37,835 bases of DNA from Candidatus Altimarinota bacterium (GTDB taxonomy: Bacteria; Patescibacteriota; Gracilibacteria; BD1-5; UBA6164), in contig JAHDHC010000013.1 in assembly GCA_020631485.1 (NCBI GenBank), positions 1-37,835 on the forward strand, read 5' to 3'. Of this stretch, positions 3,001 to 24,951 are shown piece after piece. The notes beneath the pieces are model-generated. The model was not told where the DNA came from and ran no database searches. It was given only the letters and a program-made list of their open reading frames with translations. The position numbers and the translations under genes are program-made. The stretch's first letter is position 1; each line of letters begins with the position of its first letter.

Positions 3001-6000
3001 TAATGATATCATTATCATTTGAACTATATGATCTTTCTTCATCTGCTGTTCATGGCATAGAATCACCTGTCGCTGATACACTCCCAGAAAGCATTTCTCC
3101 ATATTCAACGCTACTATCTAAAATAGTATCGTAACTATATGTAATAGTTTCTCATGGAAGGAGTACTGCTCCACTTGATGTTGGAAGATAGCCTGTTCAT
3201 CCTGTTGATTTTGGTGGAAGTGTATCGGTCCATGTTATATCATAGAGAGGTGCAGTTCCTGTATTTTCGATTGTTATAGTTGTAGATATAGCATCTCATC
3301 CATCTCATGTATTTGGAGAAAATTCTTTTGTGATGACAAGGTTTGGCTCTACTATATCAAAGTTTGGACTATTATCAGACTTTGAGTTTCCATTGTCATA
3401 TTGTATTTCAGCAACTGAGTTTATGAGATCTCCTGCATTGTTATCTGGGACATCGTTTACGAGTACTTGAGTTTGGAGTAAAAATCATGCTCATGTAGAT
3501 GCTCAAGTATTATCTATATCTCAAAAGGTAAATGTAATAGTGTTATCTGGTCCTATGACAATACTTTCAATGGTATGAGATCATACTGCATCAGTGAGTA
3601 TTGATCATGTGAGGAAGCTAAATTCTGGTGGAAGAGTTTGTGTTACAATAGCCCCACTATATAACAGTGCTGGTGTATCAATCTGTATATTGTAAGTAAG
3701 TTCTTCTCATATCGTGATATCTGCATAAGTTCCGTTAAATGCACCACTTCAAGTGTCTGAATTGTTTGTTGCAGTTATGTAATGCGTGATTGCTATGTCT
3801 TTTATATCGAGATCTACAAAATCACTTGCTGTATAGTTTGCTTCTACTGCTACTCCATCATCATCAAGTGTAGAGTATGCTATATCAGCACTATTTCTTT
3901 CTTGTGATCCTGCAAGCGCTCCATTTCATATACTCGCATCAAAGGTAATTGTTTCTGTTTCTCATAGTTCGAGTTTTGGTAGAACTATACCAGAGCCTGA
4001 GAATAGATCAGCTTCAGATCATACAAAGTTAGCATTTCCTCAAAGAGTCCCAGTTATATTCGTAACATTTGGAGGTAATACATCTTTCAACAACACATCA
4101 TAAGCTGGAGCATTTGAAGTACTTGTGTGTTCTATTTCGAGAGTATATGTCACTGTATCTTCTGTGTCTGCAGATGATGGAGCGACAGTTTTTGTGATAT
4201 TAAGCGTTGGAATAATGAGATCAACTGGAGTATTTCTATTGATCGTTTGTCAAGAGTATCTAAAATCTCAACGAGCTCTATTGTTATTTCTCCTAGTGGT
4301 ATCATTTCTTCAAATAGCTGTCGTGCGGATAACAATTGTTTGATCAGTGGTCCCAGTATTTACTATATCACCAAAATCTACAATATTAGAAGTAAATCAT
4401 GTCCCAGTTGAAAAAGTAAGATTTGGACCAGTTGATACTACTTCACCGCTCAAATAGGTCAGTCTACTGGTTAGAAGATTTTCTGTAAAACGACTGTTGG
4501 TGTAAGTACCTCATGGAAGGGTAATAGTCGTTTCAAAAACTGTTTCTTCCCCAGCATGAATATCTGGTCTTCAACCTGGTTGGTTATCTGGTGAATCAGC
4601 TTCACTTGTAGAATAGTATGTACGAGTAATAGTTGGAGCTTCTACTGTAAATACAGCTTCATCATCAACTGTATCTATTTTGTTAAGATCATTTGAAGGA
4701 GCATCATCAGCAGAATAATAATCAAGTTCTACCGTATTGGTTCTTTGCTCCCCTCATACGATTACAAAATCAACCGTAGGAGAAACGGTATAAGTCAGAA
4801 TGATAACTGACTCATCTCTGTTTGCTGTTGCAGTATCATCCACGTCGAGAAAAGATCTATTGAGTGGCCCTTGTGGGTCAAAAGATATATCGAGACTATT
4901 TCCTGTTTGTACAACTGAAGCACCCGCAACTGGAGTTGCTGCTGATCCAGCATATACCATAGAAAAGCTATCGAGAAGCATATTATCAGGAAGTGTATCC
5001 GTAATATTTTCGAGATATCATGCAGCTTCACCTGTATTTTCTATTCTTACATTATAGGTCACACTATCTCAAAAAGATACATTTGTTGTAGGATCAGGAT
5101 TTACGTCTTTTGTGAGTTCAATCACTGGAAATCCTAGAGTAAATGGTTCTCTAAATATTTCTGTAGTACTGAGTGTTCCTTCGTCATTGTTAAACGTTCA
5201 AATCAATACATTTTTTATATCAACATTTGATTGTCATGGTCCAGGTGAGATAGCTAAAACATCAACACTAAAATTGATAGAAAATGTCTTAGCCATCGTT
5301 CCAGCACCAAGACTGAATTCTATGCTGTTTGCTGGGGTTGTTGCGATCCATGAAGTATCTGTTGGAGTAGATCATCAGAGACTTTGTCCGTTAAATACTG
5401 TATCAGCTGTACCATCTGCATTGTCATCATTGATAGGGACATTCACACCGTATAAGTCTTGGAGTGAATTATTTGTCTGAAAAGCGATATCATAGGCATC
5501 AGTATTTGGTCAGGTGACAAGAGGAAGTGCATCTATAAGCTTCGCTCATGTAGAGTAAACATTTGGAAAAGACATAGATGCATTAAAGTCGAGTTTTGAT
5601 CAAACAGGAATACTTCTTCCTGCAGGAAGTGGATTAGAAGAATCATATACTGTTCCATCTGGAAAAGTTATTGCGACAAGTTGCTTTGCATTTGTAGGAC
5701 TTGGTGCTGTAATAGTTGCTGTTGCAGCATCTGTATCTTGTTGTCAGATATGAGTTGGATCTGTGTATCCCCATTCTTCGTTGTTTCAGCTATCAATTAT
5801 ATTTCAGCGAAATTGTGCACTATTCGTAATTGATTGAGTATTTTCATATTGGATATCTCATGCTCATTCATACGCTCCATCAACCAGTACATCATATACG
5901 ATAATAAGTAAGTCTCCTGCTTGTATAGTATCTCATGCTCAGAGAGTCCATATAAGTGTTGTATCTCCGTCTACATTTGTAGAGTTGGTTGTCAGTGAAA

Positions 6001-7309
6001 GAGCATCTCCTCATCCACTATTTGTACTAGATATGAGTGAAACAAATGAAAGACCGTCTGGGAGGAGATCTTCTATCGCTGTTCATCCACCATTACTGTC
6101 GTATGACATATTTTGTGCTACATCGTACGTAATAGTATAACGAACCGTATCACCAATAACAGGTGATTCATTATTTACAGATTTTCCCAGTATTCAAAAT
6201 GATAGAATACCATCAGCTTCTTGAGGGGCAATTACGGAATCTGCATTAATCGAAATAGCTCCTGATCCATCATTCCAGCTCCCAGCAACCTGTTGAGTCG
6301 CTACATTTGTAGAAATAGTTTGATCATTTACAACTGCGTTGGTATCAAGTACTACCGATGTTCCGTCATATGATGCTGCTTCGTGTGATAGTGCCTGAGT
6401 TTCATATTGGATATCTACTACTCATCAAGTTGGAACATCGATATTTGAAATAGTGAGCGTTACCTGTCCTGCTGATGGTGTATCATATGCTACATTTGTT
6501 GTAGCTCCAGCTGTTGCAGTGAATCAGATGAATTTTCTATCATTTGGGATAACATCAACTATTTCAAAATCATTAAGTGGTCACAAAGCGTTTCCCGTGA
6601 TTCTGAGTGTTGAAGTTCAGATTTCTCAAATAAGGAGCTCCCCTACTCATATCTTTTCGATGTCGTATGGGATGAATTGTGTTGTTGTAGCTTCAAATGG
6701 AAGATTTGAAGTATTGGTATTTGCATCAATATTGTCAGGAAAGTTTGAATCTACTGGGTCATTGGCTGAATTTGCATAATCATATCATCCAGGAAGTGTT
6801 CCGGCTGGTGAACCACTTGGAATAGGTCCTGCTCCATAGATACTATCTTCTGCGTATGCGAGTACTTCAATATCTGTTGGAGTAAAAAGGTCTGCTGATG
6901 TATCTGAACTGAGATTTACAGAAAAACTATCTGAACTTCCTTTCATAATAAATCCATCCGTTTCAAAAAACAAGATCTTGGATCCATCAGGACGAACTTC
7001 TGTTCTCACTGGATTTCACAGATCTGGACTAGAAACAAAGTTTACATCTGCTGGGAGATTAAGAATAAATCATGGAGAAAATGCATCCGACTCAGAACTC
7101 GTTGCATTTGCAAGATTTATGTCCATAGTAAAGTTGTTTCCTATAATACTGCTCGGCTCTACACTTGAGCTCACAGTCATATTTAGATTTGCTGTCCCAT
7201 CACTATCTATAGCATACGCCAGTTGAGTAGTAGTTGGAAAAAAGACTCCAAATGACTGAAATAGCATTGCTACAAGCAAGATTTTTGCCAATAGTTTTTT
7301 CATATTCAT
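1..7309 (-). CDS. Giant secreted surface protein with DUF11/DUF7507-like repeats (C-terminus beyond window)
   Basis: At least 2435 residues are visible and the frame is still open at the left edge. The start is the ATG at 7309 (Met-Asn-Met-Lys-Lys), followed by a hydrophobic signal peptide that probably ends after TQLAYA near residue 34. I translated samples near positions 20, 400, 900, 1880, 4350 and 5480. All stay in frame with TGA = Gly and give beta-rich text typical of DUF11/DUF7507 modules, such as VDFGDIVNTGTTDQT and VGDTIDYLFQVENTGNL, with recurring PxWEIxK module starts. Acidic Asp/Thr/Ser linkers (TNDPTT, DPGDEEVET) separate modules near the visible C-terminal end. It is likely an exported adhesin or cell-surface stalk. 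The anchor is not visible, and I did not check every codon. Confidence 0.85.
420..1700 (-). repeat. Three tandem repeat units inside the surface-protein gene
   Basis: About 430-base units recur. Each encodes a segment near GYVDNNA (around 565, 1000 and 1430), then an acidic linker with SDxGxExVET and TNDPT (around 430-530, 840-960 and 1290-1390), then a new beta module. The units have diverged at base level but keep order and spacing, as expected for old tandem duplication within one exported protein. Confidence 0.6.
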
Positions 7310-11134: not shown

Positions 11135-12562
11135 TTAAATCCCTCGTCCTCTCGGACTATCTCAATCATGGAGCACTGCATCTGAGTGCAAGAGTTTTAC
11201 AGCTCTGGCAGAGTCTCGTACTTTGAGTACACTACGTGCAAGCATCTTCTTTTCAAAATCCTCAAGGAGTGTTTTTCTGAGTCATGTTTCTTTCCAGTTT
11301 GAGTCAAGAAGGCAATTTGCTGTAATGGCTCGAGCGAGATCGAGTGCATCTAAAATTGCCTGGTTTGCGCCCTGTCACTTAAATGGGCTCATTGGATGCA
11401 TAGCATCTCAGATAAGGGTGATGTTTCAGATATTTGCGAGTGATTCATGATCAAGTATCTCCCTATCATATACTGGGTAACCACTTATCTTTCAGATATC
11501 TGTAGCTTTGAGTATCTCAGGAATTGGACTATGCCAGTTTCAAAGTCTCTGGATTGCCTCTTGTTTTAAGGTATTAGCTCATTGTTTACTCAATTTTTTT
11601 GCTTCTTCTTCATCAAGTGGAAAGCTTAATTGCCACATAATATTTTCTGCATCATAGGGCATCATGTATATGCGCTCTGTGCCATTTACAGTCTGAAAAA
11701 CAGTCTTTGAATCAAGAAGATGACTCTGTACATCAGAAAGACTCTCAAGACGACAAATACCTAAAATCACGATACATCCTAGATACTGTAAAGGAGATTT
11801 TTCTTCTCCGATCAGATGTCTTCGTACTGTACTTCGTATCCCATCAGCTCCAACCACAAGATCAGCTGTTATTCTGTGAGATTTCTGTCCTGTTTCAAAC
11901 TCCAGATCTATTTTTCATACATCATTATGGGATATATTTTTCAAGCGATGTCCCCATGCGATATCTGTCCCCTCACCGAGTTGTGAAATAAGCTGAGCAC
12001 GCAGAGATTGTCGTGAGATATGTATATTTCTCGGTTTTGTGGTCTTAGTCAGCTCTTCTTTTGAGAGTTTTCACCTCCCCCATCGTCCAATAACTTTTCC
12101 CTCAGTATCATGTACAAGATGGATAGTCGAAATAATTCCCTCTTTTATATCATCAAGTCCAAGTCACGTAATTGCCTTACTTGCCTGTTGTAAGGTAAGT
12201 CAGTATCATTGTGCTCGTTCATCAAAACTTGTGTCGCGTTCATATAAGGTGTAAGGGATACCCCTGTGAAGACAGGCAATGGCCAGAGCAACTCCCCCTA
12301 TACCTCCACCGATTATCGCAATACTAGGATAGTTTTTTGTATCTTTTTCTGGGAATTTCCTAGACTGTACTAGGCCAGTTCCTCAACAGTGTTTGCATAT
12401 ATCTATTTGTGGGATAAGTTTTTTTGGCTTATGTGATCCTCATAATCCCTTTTCAAATTGCTCCACATACTTCGCATGACGACGACGAGCTCGCCTCCCA
12501 ATAGGAAGCTCTACTTTCGCCTCTCACAAACACTCAGGACATGATCTATAAAAGCATTTCAT
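11135..12562 (-). CDS. FAD-dependent monooxygenase with N-terminal zinc-binding segment
   Basis: 475 residues. The flavoprotein part has all three family signatures: the dinucleotide-binding loop GGGIGG near residue 84, VVGADGIRS near 235, and LIGDAMHPMSPFKGQGANQA near 384. This places it with aromatic-ring or quinone hydroxylases of the UbiH/salicylate-hydroxylase type. Unusually, about 65 residues precede the Rossmann fold. They carry Cys8-x2-Cys11 and Cys56-x2-Cys59 with a GGTGLV turn, like half of a DnaJ-type zinc finger, plus an Arg-rich patch (GRRARRRH). The start at 12562 keeps this segment in frame with no stop. No ubiquinone pathway is visible, so the substrate is unknown. A start near residue 80 would remove the zinc segment, but its motif regularity argues for the longer form. 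Confidence 0.85.
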
Positions 12563-12662
12563 ATATTGTTATTTTTGATAAATTCAGTCTTAGTGATTAT
12601 TTTATTCTATCTAAGATCCAAAAAATACAAAGTAGCTGTACCAAGATAATTTTTTAGAGAAT

Positions 12663-12704
12663 AAAAAACTATTCTCTCGAATAGTCGTTTTATTTTTTAT
12701 GGCA
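12663..12704 (-). terminator. Terminator hairpin, copy 1 of a repeated element
   Basis: ACTATT and AATAGT flank the loop CTCTCG, with T-rich arms on both sides. It lies downstream of the DUF4236 gene on the minus strand. A near-identical 42-base copy, including the following ATGGCA, occurs at 14774-14815. Confidence 0.7.
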
Positions 12705-12764
12705 CGACGAGAAGATGAGTAAGGAGGAACTAATTGATTTATTAGAAATGACATAAAACCTAAA

Positions 12765-14024
12765 TTACTGTAACGAAATATTAACCGGTATAGTATCCTT
12801 ACATACTTCACAATACACTTCTCATTCTTTAATAAGATAATTGTATGAAAAGCTCCCTATCAATCATCAGCACTCTGTGCAATTAATCAAAACTTCTTCA
12901 TCAAGACTAGATACTTTTTGAGGAGTTTTTATATCTTGACCATTCAAATATCTTAAATACGTATCTAAATCCGTTCAGAACTTATTTAGTTTAGTAAAAT
13001 CACTAAATACAAATTCTTCATATAATCATGTTTCGGAATCAAGACATAACTTTCCATATTCAACTATTGGTATTTTTTTATTATTACTATATCTTTTATC
13101 AGGTCATTCACTTTTATTTACGTATCTCCACGTATGATCAATTATTCTAGTATCACTTGGAACTTTCTCCTCTTCAATTATTCTGTCAGGAAAATATGAA
13201 ATTTGTAGTTTTCGTATATCAAAAATATCTATTTTTTTACCATAGTTTATAACAACATGTGAGGGATACAAAAATATATCTCCACCATTCTTATTTACGA
13301 ATTTTAGTGTCTCTCATTCTGTTTGAATCTCATCTAAAGAACTAAGATAAATACTTGTTTTTTTCCTCTTTAAAATCTTATTTGCTCAACTCCTATCTTT
13401 TACTCAATCATTATCTTGAGTAGATGTGATATCCCAAATTTTTTTACATGTAATTAATTCTTTGAATGACGCTATAAGCCTACAATATATTTCTTTACTT
13501 CGGTCATCAAATTTTACGTCTAATTTTACATAACTATCTTTTTCTACTCACTTAAGTTCAACTAACATTCACTTACTCTCTAAATAATATTGAGAGTATC
13601 ATTTATGTAAAAAACCTCACAGTAAGTATAGTAAGACTAGAAACAAAAATTTTATTTGTATGATTGATATTTCATTTTTTAGAATCTTCCTCTGTTTGAA
13701 ACTATCTTTTATATCCTGCTTTATCTGCTCTCATATATCATCACTCATCTTTCAAATTTCGAGAGATTTAATCTCATGAGCTAATTCTTTATTGAAATCA
13801 GTACTACTTACTTCATCAAAATCTACATTTCATATTTTCTTTCATCAAATTTTAATTCTATCGTAGATTCAAGTTCCTGGTAGTCATACATTAAGATATT
13901 GACCATGTTTATTGAAATTAACATTAAAACCTTTTATTCATATAGTACTACTTACTCAACTTTTACTTATATTTAAAGTAAATCATGGAAATATGGTAAC
14001 TCTTTTTCTAAATTTTAATCACAT
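12765..14024 (-). CDS. DUF4236 membrane protein with C-terminal zinc ribbon
   Basis: 419 residues. The N-terminus (MGLKFRKRVTIFPGFTLNIS, then KSGVS and later GLPGTGIY) matches DUF4236, where the second residue and the Pro-Gly glycine are conserved. Here both glycines are TGA, a direct support for code 25. A hydrophobic stretch near residues 115-136 is a probable membrane span. The middle is a Lys/Asp-rich soluble region without known motifs. The C-terminus has CTECGG near residue 380 and YCEVC near 405, a four-Cys ribbon. DUF4236 is usually an N-terminal add-on of membrane or signalling proteins with no assigned activity. Stop TAA at 12765; a terminator follows. Confidence 0.85.
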
Positions 14025-14126
14025 GTTTATAGTATTATTTAGGTGTTAAAAAATTTTTTTAGTACATATTTATGTTATAAGAATATGATTAAATGTAAAA
14101 AAATATTCAATCACTATAAAATAAAA

Positions 14127-14165
14127 GAGTCAACGATTTTTTACGATAGTTGACTCACTTTTTTT
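14127..14165. terminator. Bidirectional terminator-like hairpin
   Basis: GAGTCAAC (14127-14134) pairs perfectly with GTTGACTC (14149-14156), followed by a seven-T run on the plus strand and preceded by an A-rich stretch. It lies upstream of the DUF4236 start rather than behind a gene, so it may belong to a short untranslated transcript or insulate the two regions. Confidence 0.6.
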
Positions 14166-14171
14166 GACAAT

Positions 14172-14264
14172 AAGATTCCTGTGTGTTCTAATTAGGTTAC
14201 GACACGAAATTTGAAGACATAACACAAAATAACATTTATGTTATTCACACAAGAATCTTTTTAT
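14172..14264 (+). other. Closed inverted-repeat element upstream of a small membrane gene
   Basis: AAGATTCCTGTGTG (14172-14185) pairs at 13 of 14 positions with CACACAAGAATCTT (14246-14259), which runs into a T-run. Inside lies a second palindrome, AATAACAT-TT-ATGTTATT. The outer stem plus T-run resembles a leader transcript ending in a terminator 20 bases before the small membrane gene. It could be a cis-regulatory leader, a small RNA or a mobile palindrome. A TTGACA box at 14164-14169 overlaps its left edge. Confidence 0.4.
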
Positions 14265-14284
14265 CTAATAAATAGTTCTGAGTT

Positions 14285-14575
14285 ATGTGTTCAATATTCT
14301 GTAGTAGAGCTACAGAATTATTGACAGATCCTCGTTATCTATTTCCTACAATTGGAACATTATTTCCATTAATAAGAAGTGATGATAAAATTCAAATCGT
14401 TACAGCTATTTGAATAATTGTAATCATTCTCGCATGTAGTATAATAAAAAACTGGAGATATTTATTAAAACAATTAGGTCCTATCTTACTATTAATGCTT
14501 AGAGTTATAATAGCAAGTAAAGACATAATAGTTCGATTAATATATAAATCAAAAATTTTTGTAGTTCGTAAATAA
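14285..14575 (+). CDS. Small two-span membrane protein, unknown
   Basis: 96 residues, with one TGA read as Gly in the first membrane span (IVTAIGIIVIILACSII). A second hydrophobic segment (GPILLLMLRVIIA) follows, and the C-terminus is basic (YKSKIFVVRK). An upstream in-frame TAG at 14273 limits the start. No good ribosome-binding site precedes the ATG at 14285, which lowers confidence. The stop TAA is fused to a strong terminator. The size and topology resemble holins or small toxins, but nothing specific supports that. Confidence 0.5.
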
Positions 14576-14601
14576 AGATTATCGTTAATGATAATCTTTT
14601 T
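14575..14601 (+). terminator. Rho-independent terminator of the small membrane gene
   Basis: AAGATTATC (14575-14583) pairs with GATAATCTT (14590-14598), with a TTTT run at the end. It starts at the last base of the stop codon. Its presence supports a real plus-strand transcript here. Confidence 0.75.
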
Positions 14602-14612
14602 AATTTTAATCA

Positions 14613-14630
14613 CACCCCCCTAGGAGTCGG
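14613..14630 (+). other. Possible att site: degenerate copy of the tRNA-Trp 3' end
   Basis: This stretch and the tRNA-Trp 3' segment (23983-24001) run in the same direction and share CACCCCC, CTAGGA and TCG, about 16 of 19 positions with one gap. Direct repeats of a tRNA 3' end commonly flank elements integrated into tRNA genes. The match is short and diverged, so this is a candidate only. Confidence 0.35.
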
Positions 14631-14808
14631 TCTCCATTACAGTGCGATACTCGCACAGTAATTCTTGACCCCTCGGTCATTGCTCTTATTCATCGCAATG
14701 AGTTTCTCACTTACGCTCCGCGTAGATGAGAAACCAAAGCCTCGATTCAATTCCTTGCAACAAGGTAAAAACAAAAAAACTATTCTCTCGAATAGTCGTT
14801 TTGTTTTT
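14623..14808. repeat. Cluster of six consecutive hairpins
   Basis: In under 200 bases there are stems GGAG/CTCC (14623-14635), GTGCGA/TCGCAC (14642-14656), GACC/GGTC (14667-14678), CATTGC/GCAATG (14678-14700), GTTTCTCA/TGAGAAAC with an inner ACGC/GCGT (14702-14734), and ACTATT/AATAGT (14779-14796, the second copy of the 12663 element). The block is more GC-rich than its surroundings. No protein frame explains it. It may be a structured RNA, a recombination site, or stacked palindromic repeats. Confidence 0.5.
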
Positions 14809-14812
14809 AATG

Positions 14813-15539
14813 GCAGGCTACCAGCTTGCAAAATCGCACAAATCTCAAGGAATATCTTGATAAAGCCATCTGACAGAATATTACTGATTTTCAAAAACAA
14901 ATCAATACCTGGTATGAAATCTTCGATATAAGTCTACAGAAGTGATACTTCTGACTCTAGGCTCTACCTAATAGATAATCTAACAATAGAAAATGACTAC
15001 AAAAAAACAAATTATTGCAAACAGGAAGAATTCTCAAAAATGATGAGTAAAGACTCAAGAGTGAAAGCAGAAGATAAAACTCAATGCCGTAAAACATGGA
15101 ATAACTTCAAGTCTTTATAACAGAGACCTTGAACAACAAATCATAGAAGAGTATGAGATCACAGGAACTCTCGAAAAAATGATGGTACAACACACTTGTA
15201 TCTCCAGAGCTAGGTATGAAAGAGGCATCTGTCTCGAAAATAAACTCATTATGCATATAGTAAGTCCTCCAAAGTATGAGAAGGTCTATAACTCAAAAGA
15301 GCAATGAGAAAAATACAAAGCATATAACAAGAGACTAGCCGATGATCTTGTGAATTCTCCCCTACTCAATATAGAACCAGGATATAAAGAAGAATTAGTG
15401 GAATGAGAGGAATTCTGATTAGATATGGAAAAAATAGAATATCTAGTCAGTATTATAGGAAAGTACAACCACCAAAATGAAGTACAGCTCAATAAAAATC
15501 TTAGATGATTACTAGAATATATCTCACAAAAACAATAAT
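14813..15539 (+). pseudogene. Frameshifted hypothetical gene
   Basis: Three successive frames each read as plausible lysine-rich protein and join end to end. Frame b (14813-14961) gives LKEYLDKAIGQNITDFQKQ. Frame c (about 14934-15120) gives LYLIDNLTIENDYKK and KTWNNFKSL before TAA. Frame d (from about 15110 to TAA at 15537-15539) gives LYNRDLEQQIIEEYEITG through LLEYISQKQ. Removing one T near 15115 joins c to d as FKSLYNRDL. Removing one base near 14960 joins b to c. Several TGA codons read as Gly. No family is recognised and no intact start is visible. It looks like a recently decayed gene of this lineage. Sequencing error is possible but would need two independent errors. Confidence 0.6.
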
Positions 15540-15543
15540 TTTA

Positions 15544-15571
15544 TTGACTTATAGTAAAATATTATTATAAA
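15544..15571 (+). promoter_or_regulatory. Probable sigma-70-type promoter for dapD
   Basis: TTGACT at 15544-15549 and TATAAA at 15566-15571 are separated by 16 bases, in AT-rich DNA typical of the host rather than of dapD itself. A strong ribosome-binding site (GGAGGT, 15607-15612) lies just before the ATG at 15619. Confidence 0.55.
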
Positions 15572-15618
15572 ATATAAACTCAATTCCGAGTAAATATGCA
15601 AACAAATGGAGGTAGACT

Positions 15619-16689
15619 ATGTCTATTTTTGCAGCTGGTCTGGGCTTACAGACAACAGATGGTAACGGCAATGTTTTGGAAGTTTACTTCCATAAAGCAT
15701 TCGTCAGAACCGAGCAAAATGCAAGTGCAGTCGACGATTTCGTAAAAATCGCTGGTTGGTTCTATTCGGGTGGCAATAAAACCATCTGCTTGGCTCCATA
15801 CCAAATCGATAAACTGATCGAAGCGTTTTCCGAACACACTGGTACGGTGACTTTCCTTGAAGGTGCACGCGATGCACACGAACGGATGGTCGTGACAATT
15901 CTTGAAACCGATGAAGCTCCTCAAAGTGTCGCTGAAGCGTACTTGAAGCTGACCTTACTTTCAAGCCGTGCTATACAACCACACGGGCAATCACTTGATG
16001 GGATCTTCGCTGTTTTACCAAATGTTGCATGGACAAACGAAGGTGTTGTTTCGCTGGATGAACTTCCAGCTCGACAGCTTTCTGCTCGTGCTAATGGTGG
16101 AGTACTTCATGTATATGCCGTGGACAAATTCCCTCCAATGGCTGATCATGTTGTTCCAAGTGGTGTTCGTATCGGTGATGCTTCTCGTGTCCGCTTCGGT
16201 GCACATCTCGGTGAAGGTACAACCGTGATGCATGAAGGTTTTGTGAACTTCAATGCTGGCACCAAAGGTGCTGGTATGATTGAAGGACGCATCTCCGCTG
16301 GTGTAATGGTTGGTGCAAACTCTGACCTTGGTGGAGGATGTTCAACAATGGGAACGCTCTCAGGCGGAAACAATGTTGTCATCTCTGTAGGCGAAGAATG
16401 CCTCATCGGTGCAAACGCAGGTACTGGAATCCCACTGGGTGACCGTTGCACCATTGAAGCTGGTCTCTATCTGACGGCTGGAAGCAAAGTGAGCATCCTC
16501 GATGAAAATGGGGTTGAAACATCGAACGTGAAAGCTTCTGAACTTGCTGGAAAGTCGGATCTTCTGTTCCGTCGCAACTCGCAATCTGGTAAGATCGAGT
16601 GTGTAACAAATAAGACCGCTATCCAGTTGAATGAAGAACTGCACGCAAACAACTGACAAACTCAATCCACCTGTAAAAAGGTGCCGTAA
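15619..16689 (+). CDS. dapD: 2,3,4,5-tetrahydropyridine-2,6-dicarboxylate N-succinyltransferase, foreign-looking, ends at TGA
   Basis: DapD transfers succinyl from succinyl-CoA to tetrahydrodipicolinate in lysine/diaminopimelate synthesis. The frame to the TGA at 16654-16656 is 345 residues, the length of Pseudomonas-type DapD. It shows LPNVAWTNEG, GVRIGDASRVRFG, GEGTTVMHEGFVNFNAGT, SDLGGGCSTMGTLSGG and FRRNSQSGKIEC, then an ending close to LNEALHAHN of Pseudomonas. The C-terminal half is a left-handed beta-helix hexapeptide fold. About 40 glycines are present and none is TGA. Base composition is much richer in GC than the neighbours. Under code 25 the TGA is read through, adding 11 residues after its glycine to the TAA at 16687-16689, the end given here. 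No other dap gene is in the window. Recent transfer from a standard-code proteobacterium is the simplest reading. Confidence 0.9.
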
Positions 16690-16720
16690 GGCGTAAGTGA
16701 AAGAGATAGTCTAGTAATCA

Positions 16721-16750
16721 AGGCTCCCAGGGAAACCTGGGGGCTTTTAG
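16721..16750 (+). terminator. Terminator after dapD
   Basis: GGCTCCCAGG (16722-16731) pairs with CCTGGGGGCT (16736-16745) around a GAAA loop, followed by TTTT. It is GC-rich like dapD and may have arrived with it. Confidence 0.8.
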
Positions 16751-16786
16751 TATTTACTTTTTTCTATTATCGGATACACTCAGGAA

Positions 16787-16927
16787 GCCAGAATACCTTA
16801 CATTATCAGCTTGAAAATTAGAGAGGGCAACCAAGTTGCTCTAGCTCTTTCTTTTTGTTTTCAAACTGATTAGGGTGTTCTGGCGAACATAGAGTATGCT
16901 AGGTTGTCCTCTTTTTTGTTCGCCAGA
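16787..16927. repeat. Long nested palindrome, MITE-like or structured RNA
   Basis: GCCAGAATACC (16787-16797) pairs with GGTGTTCTGGC (16874-16884). Inside, TTATCAGCTTGAAAA pairs with TTTTCAAACTGATTA, and further in GGCAAC pairs with GTTGC around a short loop. The right arm (TCTGGCGAAC, 16879-16888) can instead pair with GTTCGCCAGA (16918-16927). Two mutually exclusive stems share one arm. No coding frame explains it. Confidence 0.6.
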
Positions 16928-16971
16928 TATCCCACATTTTGGTAATAAGCTTATTTTATTACTATAAAATT

Positions 16972-17469
16972 ATGGAGAAAAACATTCAATGTCCTTATTG
17001 CCATGAGGATATAAAAAAAGATGCTCAAATTTGTAAGCATTGCTGAAAAAAAGTTCAGTTCAAAATTCAAGAATTAGAAAAGCAGAGACTAAAGCAAGAA
17101 ATGTTTGATAAAAGATCCAAAACAACTGGATGAAAGATTATCAATCATCTATCAACTCATAAATGGAAATATATTATTGCTCTGTTTTGATTATTCTTTG
17201 TATATGTTTCGACTATAAGTGAGCAAAACTATACTCATCCTACATCTGGACAATGTACTGAAGCTGTAAAGAAAGCTATTGCAGAAGATTATTATAAAAG
17301 CCCAAGCACAGTGAGTTTTCAGAGCTGTCTATGGGATTTAGACGAAGCGAGAGGAGTTACAAAGATATTATGAGTGGTAGATAGTCAAAATGGATTCGGA
17401 GCCACTGTAAGAAGCGAGGTATATTGTGAAGTTTGAAATACAACTCAATGTAAAATAACTCAGAAATAA
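16972..17469 (+). CDS. Zinc-ribbon membrane protein, hypothetical
   Basis: 165 residues. The N-terminus is a zinc ribbon with Cys7-x2-Cys10 (CPYC) and Cys21-x2-Cys24 (CKHCGKK), the last glycine being TGA. A Lys/Gln-rich linker follows, then one membrane span (IIALFGLFFVYVSTI) near residues 66-84. An extracytoplasmic C-terminal domain of about 80 residues carries Cys residues (GQCTEAV, QSCLWDL, VYCEV, TQCKIT) that could form disulfides. This resembles the common zinc-ribbon plus transmembrane proteins of unknown function. It converges on the SMEK-like gene, 29 bases away. Confidence 0.8.
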
Positions 17470-17498
17470 TAGTATAAATGGGTTTGTTTTAGAAATTA

Positions 17499-20400
17499 CT
17501 ATTCCTTATAATATTTATCATATATATCTTTATATTCTTTTAGTCACATCTCCAGTCCTTTCTCAAATATCATATTACAAATAGGACAATTCTTTCCATC
17601 GTATTTTTCATACATGATAGCAAGTAAGTCCTCTATATGTGTAAATGAGTGAACCTGAAAAACTTTATCAGTTCATTCAACTTGAAGCTTGATAAGAAGT
17701 TTTATCTGATCTACGACCTTCTCTCAATCCTTATCAAGTACTCTCTTCAAATATTCATTTATTTGTCAGTATACTCCAACATTTCTAGATTTCTCAATTA
17801 GTTTCTGGAATATTTCATTCTTATAGAGAATATCAAAATCTTCTATAAAGATGTTCTCTTTATAGAAAATAAAGCTGAGCCTATAATAAATACTCATATC
17901 TTCTTCTTTTGAAGAGTCTTTATAATTATCAAGGATATAATTTACTACATCTAATTTATCTTGTAACACTTTTGGAGCTGAGACTATTCCCCTCTGAACT
18001 CAAAAACAAAATCATAACATTGCTTGATGAGATCCTATCTTTCAACCAATAATGTTATATAAAATATCTAAGTAATCTTTGATTCCTTCTTTCTTAGCAC
18101 TATTGATTCATGAGAGTATCACATTTGATAACATTGTTCAGGCTTTATTCTGTATATCTTTATCTTCTGATGCAAGTAATCATTTCAAAAGCTTTATAAA
18201 TAATTCCTTACTATCAACATATCATAATTTAGGTAGAAACCATTCGACTATTGCTTTATCAATAGTCTTATTCCTACTATGGATGTGTTTTTTCAGAATA
18301 GATGTAGTAATTCTTTTATTGTTTTTTTGAAATAAAGATGCTTTCGAAATCAAAGTAGCTTGGATACCAAATAACTTATCATTTGATAGTTCCATGATTC
18401 TCTTCTTGAGATCCTCATCATCTGGATAGTAATATAATAAAATGGAACAAGTAATAGTTCCTAAACCCCTTACTGTATTGAGTCATAAAACCAGTCAGTC
18501 ATTATCTGAATCTTCCGTTGGATCCATACTGCTTGCAAGATCTAACACTATTCATTTGACTCACTCATATACAGAAGAGTCCTCTTTTTGTATTTCTGGA
18601 GTGAATTCTCTTCATAGAAACTCAGCGTCATCCAAAATCCTTCAAATTTCAAGTTTTGTATTTGAATCATTATCTTTCAATACAGAATATATATCTACTA
18701 ATTCTCTATAGAATGTTATATCTATCGAATCTTTATATTTCTCTTTAGAGTATTCAATAAATCACTTTACAACAAGACTAGCAAATATATATGAATCTTC
18801 TCACTTAGACGAAATATAAAGATATACATCTTTTATTTGATCTAAGTTATTCTTGAAATATCAAGAAACAATACTGCCATAATCATATAAATCCCAACCT
18901 CGTTCTTTTCATAAAACTATATCACATTTTTTATAAATTTCTGCTAAAGTTTCTCTCTTACTCAAAGTAATAAGCATGGGTTCGGCACGTCCAGTCCATG
19001 AACTCACTTCTACACTTGGCTTAGATCTAAAAGAAATTTTATATCCATCATGAGATTCTAAAAACTCGGATATTACTTTTTCTCATTCTTCTGAAAGTCT
19101 ATCCTTAGGTATGGTAGAAAGTAAATAAGCTTGGTGATACTCATGGGATTTTATTTCTTTGTCATTCACTACAAAATCCTGAAATTCTTCGATATAATCA
19201 CCTTCCTTAGAAAACATATAACTGAATATTGTTACCCCCCACCTTTCTTGGAATATATTTATGAATGGGTAGATTTCTTTTTTTTGAACTAGAGCACGAA
19301 TCAAATCTAGGTTTTGTTCTTTATTATCAACTAATGCGAAACTAATGAGTTCATAGAAAACAGAATAATCCCCTCTTTCAATAATATAACTTACAACTTC
19401 TATGAAAAAATCCCTATTTTTTGTATTTTTTCAAGCCTTTATAAGTTCTTGTCACATTGTTACAAACACATTTTCTTGTAAATTATGCCTCTTACGCCCA
19501 GAAGATAAAGTTACTTCTGGAAATGAGTAATATCCGATATAATTTATTGAATTTATTTGTTGTAAAGTTCTCTTTGAGCTAGAATAGCTATCATTTTCAT
19601 ATACCAATTTTATAAGCTTTCAGAAGTAATGAAAAGTAAGCTTATAATCAATATACAGTATTTTTCAGAAAATATCTGGAAGGTATTTTTCTTCTCGAAT
19701 ACTAGCATTTATACTAATAAGTTCATTTGATTGACTTCCCTCAAAATCAAATAAATTCATAATGCTTTCGACTTGTCATTGATCAAAGTGATCAATATTT
19801 TTTGATAAAAATTCAACTATAAATTCATGTGCCATATTTTTGCCTCTTTGTACAATCTTAGATACTAGATCTAACATCAAAGATGTATCAAAAGATTTGA
19901 AAGACTTTTGAGCTAAAAGTATAGCTACTCTTCTAAATAAAAACTCATACTCTGTTTTATCTAAGGCTGTATTGAATATACTAAGTATGACATCAGTATT
20001 TTTTCATCAAACATACTTTTCAAAATAATTAACAATAGATAGTAAATTTTGATCATCAGCATTATTTTCAATAATAATATACACTAGATTATCAATAATT
20101 TCTTGAAGTATACTAGTATTTAGTTTTCATAACTTATCAAAAAAATGAAGAATGTAGCTTGAATTCTGAGAAATATTCTCGTAAAACTTCTTAGATTCTT
20201 TAGGAGTTAGATCTTGTTTCTTGATTCTCTCTATGTTTTTGATAATGTAAGCATATACATCTGAAAAGCTATCAAAATCGTAAAGAAATGCTGAAATATC
20301 AACCACCTTCTTCTGACCTCACGATATTTCTTCTAAAATACTACTAATTGCAGGATCTTTTGAAAGAAGATCTAAATATTCTTTTGATATTTCTACAGAC

Positions 20401-21137
20401 TTAGTTCATTTTTCTTTCAACACCTCTGTTGATATCTCTAGTTTATCAGTTGTACTTACTTCTGATTTTATTATATTTTGAAAATTTGAATCTTTTATAA
20501 ACTCATCTTTATGTTCTTTTATAACCTCTAACATGATCTTGTAATCATCTTTTATAGCTTCTTTTATCAGCTTATAGTTATCCTTTCTTAGTTGAAATCA
20601 TATAAAACTATCAAATATTGGAGAAAATTCATCTAAAACTTTTTTTATTTTCTTGATCTCATCAATTGGCTTAGATTCAATTTTTTTCAACAATTCATCA
20701 AATGTAATAATGTCCTCTTTTGTAAAGTTGAATCCATCTGTTCATATTGTATGAGAGTATTTTTTCTTTATTTTATGGGAAGAACTTATAAATAAAAATT
20801 TGAGATGGGGATATTTGTTAGGCAATAAATCAACTCATTCAAGTGAGTAACCTTTTTTATATGTCTTTATGGTTTCTCTTATGTGATTTGTTGAGTCATC
20901 GACTGTAACCTGTACTCAAATTCATTTTTCATTTCAAAGGTCTATACCTGGAAAATTAGTTGAAAATTTCTCATTTAGGTCTTCTAATTCCCAATCGTAT
21001 ATCACGTTCAAAATATGCAATCAAAAATCTTCCCATTTTTCAAATTTATCAGAATATTTCATCTTTTTTACTAATTCATGCTTCAATACCAAAGAAAGCA
21101 ATATATCAGTAACTTCTCTAATCAATGATTCTTTCAT
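17499..21137 (-). CDS. Large SMEK-like / helical-repeat protein, candidate defence protein
   Basis: 1212 residues in one frame when TGA is Gly; dozens of TGA codons interrupt it otherwise. The first 110 residues resemble the SMEK domain. An N-terminal helix is followed by WELEDLNEKFSTNFPGIDLG and then GVQVTVDDS, with Asp66 and Gln76-Val-Thr78 in a D-x9-QxT arrangement like divergent PD-(D/E)xK nuclease cores. The remaining 1000 residues are mostly amphipathic helices of HEAT/ARM character, rich in Lys, Glu, Ile and Leu, ending near a CPIC motif. Large proteins with a small nuclease-like head and a helical-repeat body are frequent in defence islands. The nearby MerR-like regulator and recombinase fit a mobile setting. 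Nuclease activity is inference. The start is the ATG at 21137. Confidence 0.75.
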
Positions 21138-21311
21138 TTTTTTGTTACTTAGAAATTTATTACATTATATAAAAAAAACCTTCTTTTTCAATAGCCAATC
21201 AGAAAGTAAGAGTGGCTAATATAAGGTACGTAGGTCCGAAGTAAGTGTTTCTTGACTCATGATAGCTATCGGATAAAGTGTATACAAGATATATACTTTT
21301 TTTATAAAGCA

Positions 21312-22115
21312 ATGAAGGTAGAAAGAAAATACTATATGATCCGAGGAGATGCTTTTCAAGAAAACTTATGAAAGGTGCTAAGGGTTTTAGAGGATAAGGA
21401 ACATCAAAAAAACTATAACAATATTTTTTTAGCCAAACACTATCAAGTCAACCACTCTGATACAAAAAATCAAAAACTATATAAATGGGAACAAGAGTGA
21501 TTTTTAGAGCAGTGAAATTCATATAAAGAATGTTGGAGGAAGTATAATTTTCTTGATCTAGTATGGATAAAAGTTATTACAGCACTCAAAGAAAGACACC
21601 TAACCAATCCTGAAATTAGAAGAATAAAAGAATGCTTATTCGAACATAAAAAGATTTTTGAATTCTATGTATTTAGAACATTTGTGATGCAAGAAGAGAT
21701 AAAACTTATTATTCATGATAACTATGAGGCTGATTTTTGTTCTATGGAAGAGCTCCATCTATCTGATACTTTTCACGCTCTTCATGATAGGATCACTATT
21801 AGCTTATCAGGGATTATTGAGAATATGACTTGAAAAGAACTAGAAAGAAAGATTCCACCAACTAGAATGTTATGTGATAAAGAATATGATTATTTTCTCA
21901 AAATTTTTAGTACTTGGAATGGTAATTCTCATATCGCCTTTAGAAATGGGATGATCAAGAAATTCACTCAATCACATGGGAAACAAAATATACAAAATAC
22001 TCCAGAGATGAATCTAAGAGCAACTGTTCAAAGTAATAAAAACTCTAGGGTTTGCTTTATAACAAACAATTTCTGATGAGTTGATAATATAACAACCGAA
22101 AAGATAGGCGTTTAG
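21312..22115 (+). CDS. MerR-like winged-helix regulator
   Basis: 267 residues. Around residues 58-110, YKWEQEGFLEQG is followed by KYNFLDLVWIKVITALKERH and NPEIRRIKECL. This order (short helix-turn-helix, Trp-Glu-x-x-Gly, then DLxxIxxIxxL and EIR) is that of MerR-type DNA-binding domains. The C-terminal part (residues 120-267) is not recognised. Five or so glycines are TGA. It is transcribed divergently from the SMEK-like gene and precedes the small ORF and recombinase on the same strand, so it probably controls the element. A recombination directionality role is possible. The hairpin GCGTTTAG/CTAAACGT (22108-22127) covers its stop and may attenuate downstream expression. Confidence 0.7.
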
Positions 22116-22181
22116 GGATCTAAACGTCATTTTACGTAGGCTAGAGTGTAGGATGGCTACAGTCAAGCAATTACATAACCA

Positions 22182-22325
22182 ATGAAAAGCTTATGAGAAT
22201 ATAGGAAACTATTCAAAGCAAAATGACTTGAAATCTCACAAGAAGAAATTCAAGCAATCATCGAAAGAATCGATGAAATCGGTAACCTTTTATTTGATAA
22301 ATATATAGAGAAAAATGGAAAGTAA
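22182..22325 (+). CDS. Small protein translationally coupled to recombinase
   Basis: 47 residues (MKSLGEYRKLFKAKGLEISQ, ending in KYIEKNGK), amphipathic helical, with two TGA glycines. Its last 11 bases overlap the recombinase start, a typical coupling arrangement. It could be an accessory factor for the recombinase. No family is recognised. Confidence 0.6.
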
Positions 22326-23994
22326 AAAAACTGCAGTTATTTATACCCGCGTTTCTTCAACGAAACAAAAAAAAGAGGGTGATAGCTTGAGAAATCAGGA
22401 AAAACTCTGCCGAGAATATTGTTCAAAAAATAATATGATCGTGAAAAAAGTATTTGAAGACGACTTCACATGAACAGGAACCTCTAGACCAGGATTAGAT
22501 ACAATGTATAAATATATACAACAAAATCCTGGAATTCATTTTTGTATAATAAAAAGTATTGATCGAGGATCACGTGGTGGTGTCGGTGTATATGAAGACA
22601 TAAAATCAACTCTTGAGGAAAACTGAGTACTTCTTCGTGATACTTATTGAGTCATTCAATGAAAAGAAAAAATTCTTGATAAAATAGGGAGTCTAGAACT
22701 TGATTATAAATTTTGCTATAGCGATCCATCAAGAATGAACCAGGTCATAACTGCTATCAGCTCAGAGGAAGAAAGAATGCAAATATTGCGTCGAACAATA
22801 CCACGTGAAATTGAGCTTGAGCAACAAGGATACCATGTAAGGGAATCAAATTTCTGATATAAACTTCTAAAAGTAGATGCTGAAAGATGAAAGGCAAAAA
22901 TTCAGATTCCTCACCCTATAGAATGAGCATGGATTATAAAGGCTTTTGAATTGAAAGCTCTGTGAGGATATTCAAGTGATGAGATAGCAGAAGAGCTCAA
23001 TATATTGGGAGCAGAAACGAGACGAAAGAACTCCATTAGTTGAAAATATCTTGATACATTATTCGTAAAACCAATATACGCAGGTTTCATAGTTTCTAAA
23101 TGGACAAATCAAGAAATAATTCGAGCTCAATATCAAGGGCTTGTAAGTATAGAGTTATGGAATAAAGTAAATAAAGGTAAGCGTAGAATAGTAGAGAAAA
23201 ATGATGGAAGTGTTGAATTGATAGAATACAAAAAACAAAAAAATGAAGAATGAAAGGTAGTTCAGAAGAGAAGAAAGAAATTCGATACAAAGCTTCCTTA
23301 TAGAAACTTGATAAAGTCATCTCAGAGACCAGAAAAACTTATTTCTTGAAGCATTAGTAATACTAAAAGAAATAAACCTACAGCATACTATCATGTGATT
23401 CGAAAGAAATGAGAGAAAGGAGAAAATATTAGAAAGCAAGAATTCCATGATATGATCGAATCATTCTTTTGAGAACTTCAGATACACCCAGTACTTAGAA
23501 TACTATTTGAAGATAAATTTGATGAGATCTTTGAAGGTAATAGAGCTAAAATCAACTCTAAGCTCAAACAACTCAAAGACAGAAAAATCAAGATTACAAA
23601 AGAAATAAAACAGATAGAAGATAAGATCTATAGTTTCGATACTATAATGATGAGAACTATAAAGATTTTTGAAAAGAAGTTATGCGAATTAGAAAAAGAA
23701 GTTAGTAAGATTGAACAAAGTATTTGAGAATGTGAAGGGTCAGATTTTATCAAACCAGAGAAATTCAAGGAGTTTTGTTTTAGTGTTCTCGAACATCTAG
23801 GAGAGTTCTTGAAGCAAAGCCAATCCTTGGAAGAATTATCATTGATATTCCAGTTTGTATTCAAGGAAACACCTGAGTACAACGACATAGTTAATCGAAC
23901 ATCACCCTTACAACCAATATTCGCTCTACAAAGCAAAAAAGAACCTCAAATAATTTGAAGTTCTTCTGTAAATCGTAAATGGCACCCCCACTAG
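22315..23994 (+). CDS. Large serine recombinase / integrase
   Basis: 559 residues. The catalytic domain opens with AVIYTRVSS, placing the nucleophile at Ser14 with Arg12 beside it. EDDFTGTGTSRPGLDTM and KSIDRGSRGG (near residue 82) follow, as in the resolvase/invertase fold. A recombinase domain follows (GYSSDEIAEELNILGAETRR, KPIYAGFIVSKW). The zinc-ribbon region is present in outline (LPYRNLIKSSQ to TAYYHVIRKKGEK) but its usual cysteines are absent. A long coiled coil (KINSKLKQLKDRKIKITKEI) precedes the C-terminus. About 18 TGA codons read as Gly, so it is long adapted to this code. The last five codons and the TAG stop lie inside the 3' half of tRNA-Trp, as expected when an element inserts into a tRNA gene. 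Confidence 0.9.
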
Positions 23995-24054
23995 GAATCG
24001 AACCTAGAGCGCAGGATTTGGAGTCCTGAATTTTAGCCGTTAAACTATGGAGGT
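23980..24054 (-). tRNA. tRNA-Trp (CCA anticodon)
   Basis: Read on the minus strand: acceptor ACCTCCA pairs with TGGGGGT (one G-U pair). The D arm includes GTTTAACGGCTAAAAT. The anticodon stem CAGGA/TCCTG holds the loop CTCCAAA, giving anticodon CCA. The T arm is CTAGG-TTCGAAT-CCTAG. The 3' CCA is encoded. This reads UGG only, so it fits a code in which UGA is not Trp. The 3' end abuts and overlaps the recombinase gene. Confidence 0.9.
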
Positions 24055-24067
24055 ATATTCCCATATT

Positions 24068-24165
24068 CCCTTCCTTTTGAAAGGAAGGGCTAGGGATGGA
24101 TTGGGTCCCGCAATACTGCGGGATGACAAATTTCCCCTCCCTGAGAAGGGAGGAGCTAGGGTGGA
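24068..24165. repeat. Three consecutive hairpins of dispersed-repeat type
   Basis: CCCTTCCTT/AAGGAAGGG, GTCCCGCA/TGCGGGAT and CCCTCC/GGGAGG stems follow each other. Two are followed by a (G)CTAGGG(A/T)GGAT motif. A related hairpin with GCTTAGGGTGAGG occurs at 26651-26697, and a stem CTCCCTTTT/AAAAGGGAG at 28026-28045. They lie in intergenic ends of the translation genes and may serve as terminators. Confidence 0.6.
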
Positions 24166-24951
24166 TTACACACTAAATCTGTAAAATGCTTCGATCGCAT
24201 CTTCTCCAATGAAAGCTTTGACTTTCATGTTTGGATCGATAACAAATGCTTGTTCGAGGAGAGAGATCTCTGACTTGAACTTTCACATCTTTCCTTCTAT
24301 GATCTTGAGAAGTACTTCATCTGACTTTGTTCCCATATTTGGATCGTTTTTCATGATCTCAAGTTGGATAGCTTTTTCTTTTTCTACAACTTCATCAGAA
24401 ATATCGTTTGGAGAGAGATATTCTGGGTTTGCAGCTGTTACGTGCATCGCTACTTGTTTTGCTTTTTCTTCATCAGTTCCAGATGCAGCAACAATAAGTG
24501 CTGCGAGTTTTCCATTTGAGTGAACATAAGATGCTGTCATACCTCCTGTATATGTTTGATAGTTCTTAAGTTGAAGGTTTTCTCCGAGCTCAAGTGCGTA
24601 TTCTTTATTGATTTTTTCTTGTGCTGCTTCTTTTGAGTCAGCTCCATTGTCTTTGAGATATACAGTTATATCCTGAAGCATCGCTTTAAACTTATCCGAG
24701 TTTGCAAGGAAATCAGTCTCACAAGATATAGAAACCACATGTGCTGTTGCTCCGTCTGTATGAATATTGATACCTCCCTCTAGAGTTTCTCTATCTGCTT
24801 TTTTCGCTGCTTTTGCGAGACCTTTTTTTCTGAGCTCTTCTACTGCTTTTTCCATGTCTCCTCCTGTTGCTTCGAGTGCTTTTTTACACTCCATCATCCC
24901 AATTCCTGTTATTTCTCTCAGCTCTTTTACTTGAGCTGCTGTAATTGCCAT
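24166..24951 (-). CDS. tsf: Elongation factor Ts
   Basis: 261 residues. The N-terminus is the UBA-like domain AQVKELREITGIGMMECKKA with LEATGGDMEKAVEELRKKG, unmistakable for EF-Ts, the guanine-nucleotide exchange factor of EF-Tu. The core has ISCETDFLANSDKF and MHVTAANPEYLS. One TGA (after EGKM) is read as Gly; without it the protein would lose its C-terminal 38 residues, including KVKAFIGEDAIEAFYRF. It lies 24 bases after the DUF4870-like gene in the rpsB direction. Low TGA use fits a highly expressed gene. Confidence 0.97.

Follow-up and report, generated by a model that had tools for sequence, protein, structure and literature searches.

The window, the whole 37,835-nucleotide stretch analysed here, is contig 11 of a Candidatus Altimarinota genome (G000; 1.2 Mb in 27 contigs, 93% complete) and reads cleanly with genetic code 25, in which TGA encodes glycine. 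Its tRNA-Trp(cca) gene, preceded by tsf, has on its 3' side a block of DNA that, as judged from sequence comparison, is layered: from left to right there are an older insertion (cargo-2), a protein-less hairpin element of about 210 bp and an insertion carrying a serine recombinase (cargo-1) (Table 1). The comparison set comprised 194 relatives, with 48 genomes in the window's own family. A preliminary description had taken positions 14613-24002 for one integrative element lying between the tRNA-Trp gene and a degenerate copy of its 3' end; it was partly right, since the block is tRNA-targeted mobile DNA, but it erred on boundary and unity.

The best gapped match to the tRNA-Trp 3' end in the 20 kb leftward lies at 14608-14629 (AATCACACCCCC-CTAGGAGTCG against AATGGCACCCCCACTAGGAATCG, 19/23 columns). 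Taken by itself this match is weak, because its score of 13.5 was equalled or beaten in 9 of 400 dinucleotide shuffles of the 20 kb; in context it is convincing, because it ends on the T-loop base used by other members of the family described below and a match to the hairpin model adjoins it. The direct repeat reported near 14613 is thus real, on the strength of its setting and of the relatives. Seven of these (G003, G004, G016, G018, G022, G030 and G035) carry copies of 15-26 nt at a distance of 125-215 bp past tRNA-Trp, better than all shuffles where shuffled and with one common T-loop end base. At the tRNA-Lys gene of G000 itself, a 20-nt exact 3'-end copy lies 12.7 kb away, with a second, weaker copy in between. 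By these comparisons the repeat is the displaced tRNA-Trp 3' end at the edge of the protein-less element, which spans 14608-14817.

The interval between the tRNA and the 3'-end copy holds a conserved cluster of hairpins with GCTCYTATTCRTC as the loop, and exact copies of this loop adjoin many tRNA genes. A covariance model built on 14 hairpin copies, in which 15 of 28 pairs had double changes, found matches in 22 of the 194 relatives, every one in the window's family; the window copy itself matched at 14620-14755 (E 1.7e-4), and the fold of its hairpin has a z score of -6.2. In a tabulation of 75 model matches for tRNA distance, 3'-end repeat and junction, 67 stand less than 500 bp away from a tRNA gene on its 3' side, the distances being 6-250 bp and mostly <70. 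A repeat of the tRNA's final 21 nt flanks the far side of 54 of the 75 with an agreement of ≥16/21, and this agreement is perfect (21/21) in most. In nearly all repeat-bearing copies the junction is fixed between tRNA nucleotides 55 and 56, within the T-loop. The carriers counted were 21 tRNA species, tRNA-Trp included, with tRNA-Lys as one more and tmRNA (L149) in addition; most tRNAs without a detected element at the same long loci had no such 3'-end repeat within up to 20 kb. The known elements range from about 110 to 210 bp, and tandem mini-elements without cargo occur at three loci (L114, L131 and L166).

Four further loci (L134, L135, L176 and L177, in G037, G023 and G022) carry a conserved stretch of about 210 nt, starting from GGGGTCTTAGGGGG, with the same hairpin core and no adjoining tRNA; it is possibly a related stable RNA or a parent element.

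The anatomy of the family bears directly on the delimitation of 14613-24002 as a single serine-recombinase element with the tRNA 3'-end repeats as attL and attR. A recombinase adjoining the tRNA, a repeat on the other side and accessory content in between are what such an element would display. However, the repeat is part of a distinct mini-element. This mini-element comes from an independent hairpin family whose members occur by themselves in many genomes that lack this recombinase, so that relatives keep the hairpin part of the block in place while the recombinase is missing. Position 14613 is the edge of this nested element, and cargo-1 has a boundary of its own: near 14810 its left end is marked by ATGGCA, a short repeat of the CCA end. 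Serine recombinases do adjoin tRNA-Trp in five genomes of two families (the window, G040, G009, G014, where only a C-terminal remnant is present, and G076), and one also adjoins tRNA-Lys elsewhere in G000, which bears out the description of the block as a tRNA-targeted island whose serine recombinase sits at the tRNA. At the serine-recombinase loci of G040, G009 and G076, neither a T-loop repeat nor a hairpin element was present within 16-19 kb, and the far ends of these elements were therefore not found. A single repeat-delimited element is accordingly improbable.

Table 1 Features of the tRNA-Trp block and its flanks in the window
Feature	Position	Strand	Basis
FAD-dependent monooxygenase, left flank anchor	11135-12562	-	FAD_binding_3; G027 homologue
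Probable displaced native tRNA-Trp trailer (terminator hairpin + ATGGCAC), far end of whole insertion	12660-12705		Trailer comparison, G027
Cargo-2, older insertion	12706-14607		Features within
DUF4236 protein, cargo-2	12765-14024	-	Domain; one PHROG match
96-aa open reading frame, cargo-2	14285-14575		Open reading frame
Terminator-like hairpin, cargo-2	14574-14599		Sequence
Degenerate tRNA-Trp 3'-end copy (T-loop to CCA), hairpin-element junction	14608-14629	+	Gapped match; family junction base
Multibranched DNA-hairpin element, conserved loop TCTTATTCATC, root arm complementary to T-arm	14630-14755	+	Model match, fold, family covariation
Mini-element terminator hairpin, then ATGGCAGG (tRNA CCA-end remnant); left end of cargo-1	14765-14817		Sequence comparison
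Cargo-1, serine-recombinase element	14818-23979		AATGGCA at 14809-14815 and 23978-23984
181-aa protein, intact in code 25	14993-15538	+	No known family matched
dapD	15619-16656	+	DapD_gpp 494 bits, below cut-off 518
Zinc-ribbon protein	16969-17469	+	Zn_ribbon_3 E 8e-6, just under cut-off
SMEK-domain giant protein, 1212 aa	17499-21137	-	SMEK_N 75.5 bits
MerR-like helix-turn-helix protein	21315-22115	+	MerR_1 23.6 bits, cut-off 21.6
Serine recombinase, stop codon inside tRNA 3' end	22315-23994	+	Resolvase + Recombinase; phage integrase phrog_95
tRNA-Trp(cca), integration target	23980-24054	-	tRNA gene call
tsf (EF-Ts), right flank anchor	24166-24951	-	tsf beside tRNA-Trp in nearly all relatives inspected

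The contents ascribed earlier to the block were confirmed in the main, with zinc-ribbon, SMEK_N, MerR_1-like and Resolvase plus Recombinase domains all recovered, the last two at E 6e-15 (PF00239) and 2.5e-8 (PF07508); no zinc-ribbon family was matched in the serine recombinase in the domain search. The supposed pseudogene is the intact 181-aa frame. The dapD gene is intact and, as suspected, foreign in composition: it has a GC fraction of 0.476, no internal TGA and 43 glycine codons with the stop TGA counted, this TGA being its stop codon, whereas code 25 would extend the frame to 16689. It was probably acquired recently from a donor using the standard code. DapD-like genes in further relatives likewise lack TGA.

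The recombinase gene and the tRNA gene overlap at their 3' ends, and within the coding tail of the recombinase lies a terminator-like hairpin for the opposite-strand tRNA, an arrangement that recurs in G040, G009 and G076. Past the tRNA 5' end, the segment at 24067-24102, around CCTTTTGAAAGGAAGGGCTAGGGATGGATTGGGTCC, belongs to a repeat of which at least 7 further copies are scattered over the genome. At the other extremity of the window, on the minus strand (2-7309), an open-ended giant frame of at least 2436 codons, 101 of them TGA, runs off the contig end.

The left limit of the inserted DNA was approached through the trailers, the terminator segments that follow the tRNA. The segment at 12660-12705 and the trailer at 14765-14809 are alike at 38 of 45 positions. 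In G027, a homologue of the window's monooxygenase (65% identity, same orientation) lies 2.8 kb from tRNA-Trp, a terminator followed by ATGGCA stands beside this gene, and a second such set stands at the tRNA. Because the terminator and ATGGCA lie beside the same gene in both genomes, the native tRNA-Trp trailer has probably been displaced to 12660-12705, and all DNA between about 12.7 kb and the tRNA would be inserted, so that the block appears to begin well to the left of 14613. For the mini-element, 42 of 45 positions agree between the displaced trailer in G003 and the trailer directly after tRNA-Trp in its congener G021, which has no element at this gene; by this match the two congeners are an empty/filled pair. 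In general, the trailers beside the two tRNA ends have exact shared runs of 0-30 nt, which often end abruptly.

Layered islands were also found at two other genes. At tRNA-Lys (L070, G000:C19:55000-74999) the order is cargo C, mini-element, cargo B, mini-element, cargo A, tRNA-Lys, and at tmRNA (contig C27) it is mini-element, cargo, mini-element, tmRNA. The cargo ends share just 6-9 bp of the CCA end, as seen at tRNA-Trp, tRNA-Lys, tmRNA and the tRNA-Trp of G027. This alternation of cargos and mini-elements, observed in a small number of cases, is suggestive only. It could be explained by a composite unit: hairpin, cargo and recombinase would enter the T-loop as one piece, and later loss of the cargo by excision at the CCA-end repeats would leave the mini-elements behind as scars. 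The outermost cargos of the window and of the tRNA-Lys island, however, have no hairpin beyond them, the tandem mini-elements mentioned above are cargo-free, and hairpins are not associated with serine recombinases; this explanation is therefore doubtful.

In the tRNA-Lys island, cargo A encodes a serine recombinase, a primase and replication-initiator-like proteins, and cargo B, judged by eye, a FolD/cyclodeaminase-like protein.

The hairpins are matched to their targets. Agreement between the inner arm of the root stem and the carrier tRNA amounts to 6.52 of 7 positions, against 5.09 for shuffled pairings (maximum 5.41 in 5000). The cores, in contrast, are alike by lineage and not by tRNA type (likeness of 0.79 for the same genome and another tRNA, 0.80 for the same genus and another tRNA, and 0.64 for another genus and the same tRNA), and therefore spread, or are homogenised, among tRNAs. 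In 77 distinct copies, Omnitrophota included, 93.8% of cells were paired, covariation was 0.459 vs 0.143, double changes occurred in 24 of 28 pairs and four helices covaried strongly, in an alignment fitted to the model and so favouring structure; the G.U test that follows is not affected in the same way. RNA helices normally have far more G.U than A.C cells. The ratio of G.U to A.C cells was 29:25 in the element (two loop-closing pairs excluded), with no G.U excess on either strand, as against 120:10 in the tRNA genes of the same loci, a control in which the method was able to detect RNA. Because G.U cells are about as frequent as A.C cells, unlike in tRNA genes, the fold is probably kept as DNA, in the manner of integron attC sites.

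This ratio counts against both readings of the hairpin that involve RNA. If it were a functional non-coding RNA or a tRNA-processing signal inherited vertically, its strong structure and the related tRNA-free stretch of G022, G023 and G037 would be accounted for. With a G.U:A.C ratio near 1, presence or absence varying between congeners and carrier tRNAs varying between genomes, this is very improbable; Rfam searches gave tRNA and tmRNA only, besides sub-threshold chance matches, and no known family for the element. Alternatively, a nick in the T-loop may have primed the copying of an RNA that ends like the 3' half of a tRNA, and the resulting duplication would be fixed at one end and variable at the other. 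Retrotransposition of this kind would fit the fixed junction, the trailer duplications of variable length and the lineage-wise spread among tRNAs, but neither the lack of a G.U excess nor the distribution of reverse transcriptases agrees with it: these enzymes showed no association with the hairpins, and G004, G016 and G022, with 4-5 copies, had no RVT_1 match. It is hardly probable, and reverse transcriptase was rejected as the hairpin mover.

The serine-recombinase family of the window was likewise rejected as the mover, with no association with hairpins (Fisher p = 1). The search for tyrosine recombinases returned a Xer-type gene in nearly all genomes and an IntI/XerA-like gene, whose product scored 236 bits with NF040815 (cut-off 220) and 214 bits with TIGR02249, below the cut-off of 265, so that the integron integrase family model was not passed; its best solved relative is IntI4. 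Presence of this gene goes with the hairpins (Fisher p 0.03) and with a higher copy number (Mann-Whitney p 0.001), both values without phylogenetic correction. The inspected genes lie away from elements, arrays and tRNAs. The IntI/XerA-like recombinase is thus a weakly supported candidate for the hairpin mover.

A GTDB-wide exact pattern search gave copies in Gracilibacteria and on at least 7 Omnitrophota contigs. The latter follow tRNA genes (Gly, a Leu and Lys/Arg cluster, Tyr), several with a repeated tRNA end, and several also fit the covariance model. The query recombinase matched only proteins of 30-36% identity in the Omnitrophota genomes. Pattern matches in Selenomonadaceae and Bacillales were set aside as not near tRNAs, the single match in a viral collection lies away from any tRNA, and a Cuspidothrix issatschenkoi contig (L273 / L287) carries repeated hairpins with the loop GCTCYTATTCRTC, also away from tRNAs.

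The anatomy of the element, its family, its target specificity, the covariation and one empty/filled pair are shown by the data; we infer folding at the DNA level, mobility and an order of events. The block would be an accretion island at the tRNA-Trp 3' end, formed by two kinds of insertion, folded-DNA hairpin elements at the T-loop and serine-recombinase cargos at the CCA end; a probability of about 0.6 is assigned to this reading. A protein-less element of about 110-210 bp would enter exactly between T-loop nucleotides 55 and 56, so that an intact tRNA is followed by a new trailer, the multibranched hairpin and, displaced, the former tRNA 3' end; in the root stem, one half of the tRNA T-arm would pair with its own inverted copy. 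The hairpin would most likely be a folded single-stranded DNA recombination site like integron attC, and the tRNA gene would correspond to attI. The larger cargos would insert at the CCA end and leave the 6-9-bp repeat and the old terminator at their far end; they carry, or would once have carried, a serine recombinase gene that runs with its 3' end into the tRNA.

Several results weigh against the accretion reading. None of the recombinases shows a clear link with the hairpin family: the IntI/XerA-like gene is limited to 10 of the 48 family genomes and was not found in G000. The variable trailer end resembles a duplication of the target site, fixed on one side and variable on the other, more than a simple attP x attB exchange. 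No excised circle was seen, and the empty site suggested as a check was not found in full for the window among the relatives, G027 having syntenic flanks with another cargo between them; the check was answered at the level of the mini-element, by G003 and G021. Beyond the accretion island, a wider proposal, tentative and at somewhat less than even odds, is that the hairpins are a new class of mobile DNA, integron-like and tRNA-anchored: protein-less folded single-stranded sites would use the T-loops of tRNA and tmRNA genes genome-wide as attachment sites, with the root arm adapted to each tRNA, hopping without breaking tRNAs and seeding islands in Gracilibacteria and Omnitrophota. No earlier description of such an element was found in the open-access literature on Gracilibacteria, Omnitrophota, attC, tRNA and serine recombinases, and we could not find the family of tRNA-adapted folded-DNA elements described there.

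Compared with known systems, the locus shares with Islander-type tRNA-targeted islands an intact tRNA, a displaced 3' fragment, a T-loop crossover and cargo in between (PMC4383910). Unlike in those islands, a serine recombinase adjoins the tRNA here, and the displaced fragment is the mark of a distinct element of about 200 bp that encodes no protein. The intact tRNA with its displaced fragment belongs to the hairpin element (degenerate in the window, exact in relatives), and the integrase on board is the serine recombinase of cargo-1, the mini-element having none. The Resolvase plus Recombinase domains and membership of the phage integrase family phrog_95 are those of large serine recombinases, but here the target is a tRNA CCA end and the gene terminates inside the tRNA. 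Like miniature inverted-repeat transposable elements and repetitive extragenic palindromic (REP)-like repeats, the hairpin elements are short, non-coding and present in many copies, possibly with target duplication; they differ in the lack of terminal inverted repeats at both ends and in their strict tRNA/tmRNA target. The single-strand attP sites of integrative mobile elements exploiting Xer (IMEX) and of CTX phage, used by XerCD, make a folded single-stranded site served by a host-type recombinase conceivable here, with the tRNA T-loop and not dif as the target. With integron attC the hairpins share an imperfectly paired folded site, conserved bulged bases, a junction at one end of the root stem, tandem arrays and, in some genomes, an IntI-like recombinase. 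In contrast to attC, they are multibranched, their root stem is tRNA T-arm sequence without GTTRRRY/RYYYAAC boxes, and they are dispersed over many tRNA genes with no intI/attI alongside. More surprising than serine recombinases adjoining tRNAs is a protein-less hairpin whose helices covary almost purely by Watson-Crick pairs and one arm of which is fitted to the respective host tRNA; the family offers a marker of gene flow into ultra-small bacteria and Omnitrophota and a ready test of whether the folded single-stranded DNA recombination known from integrons works on tRNA genes.

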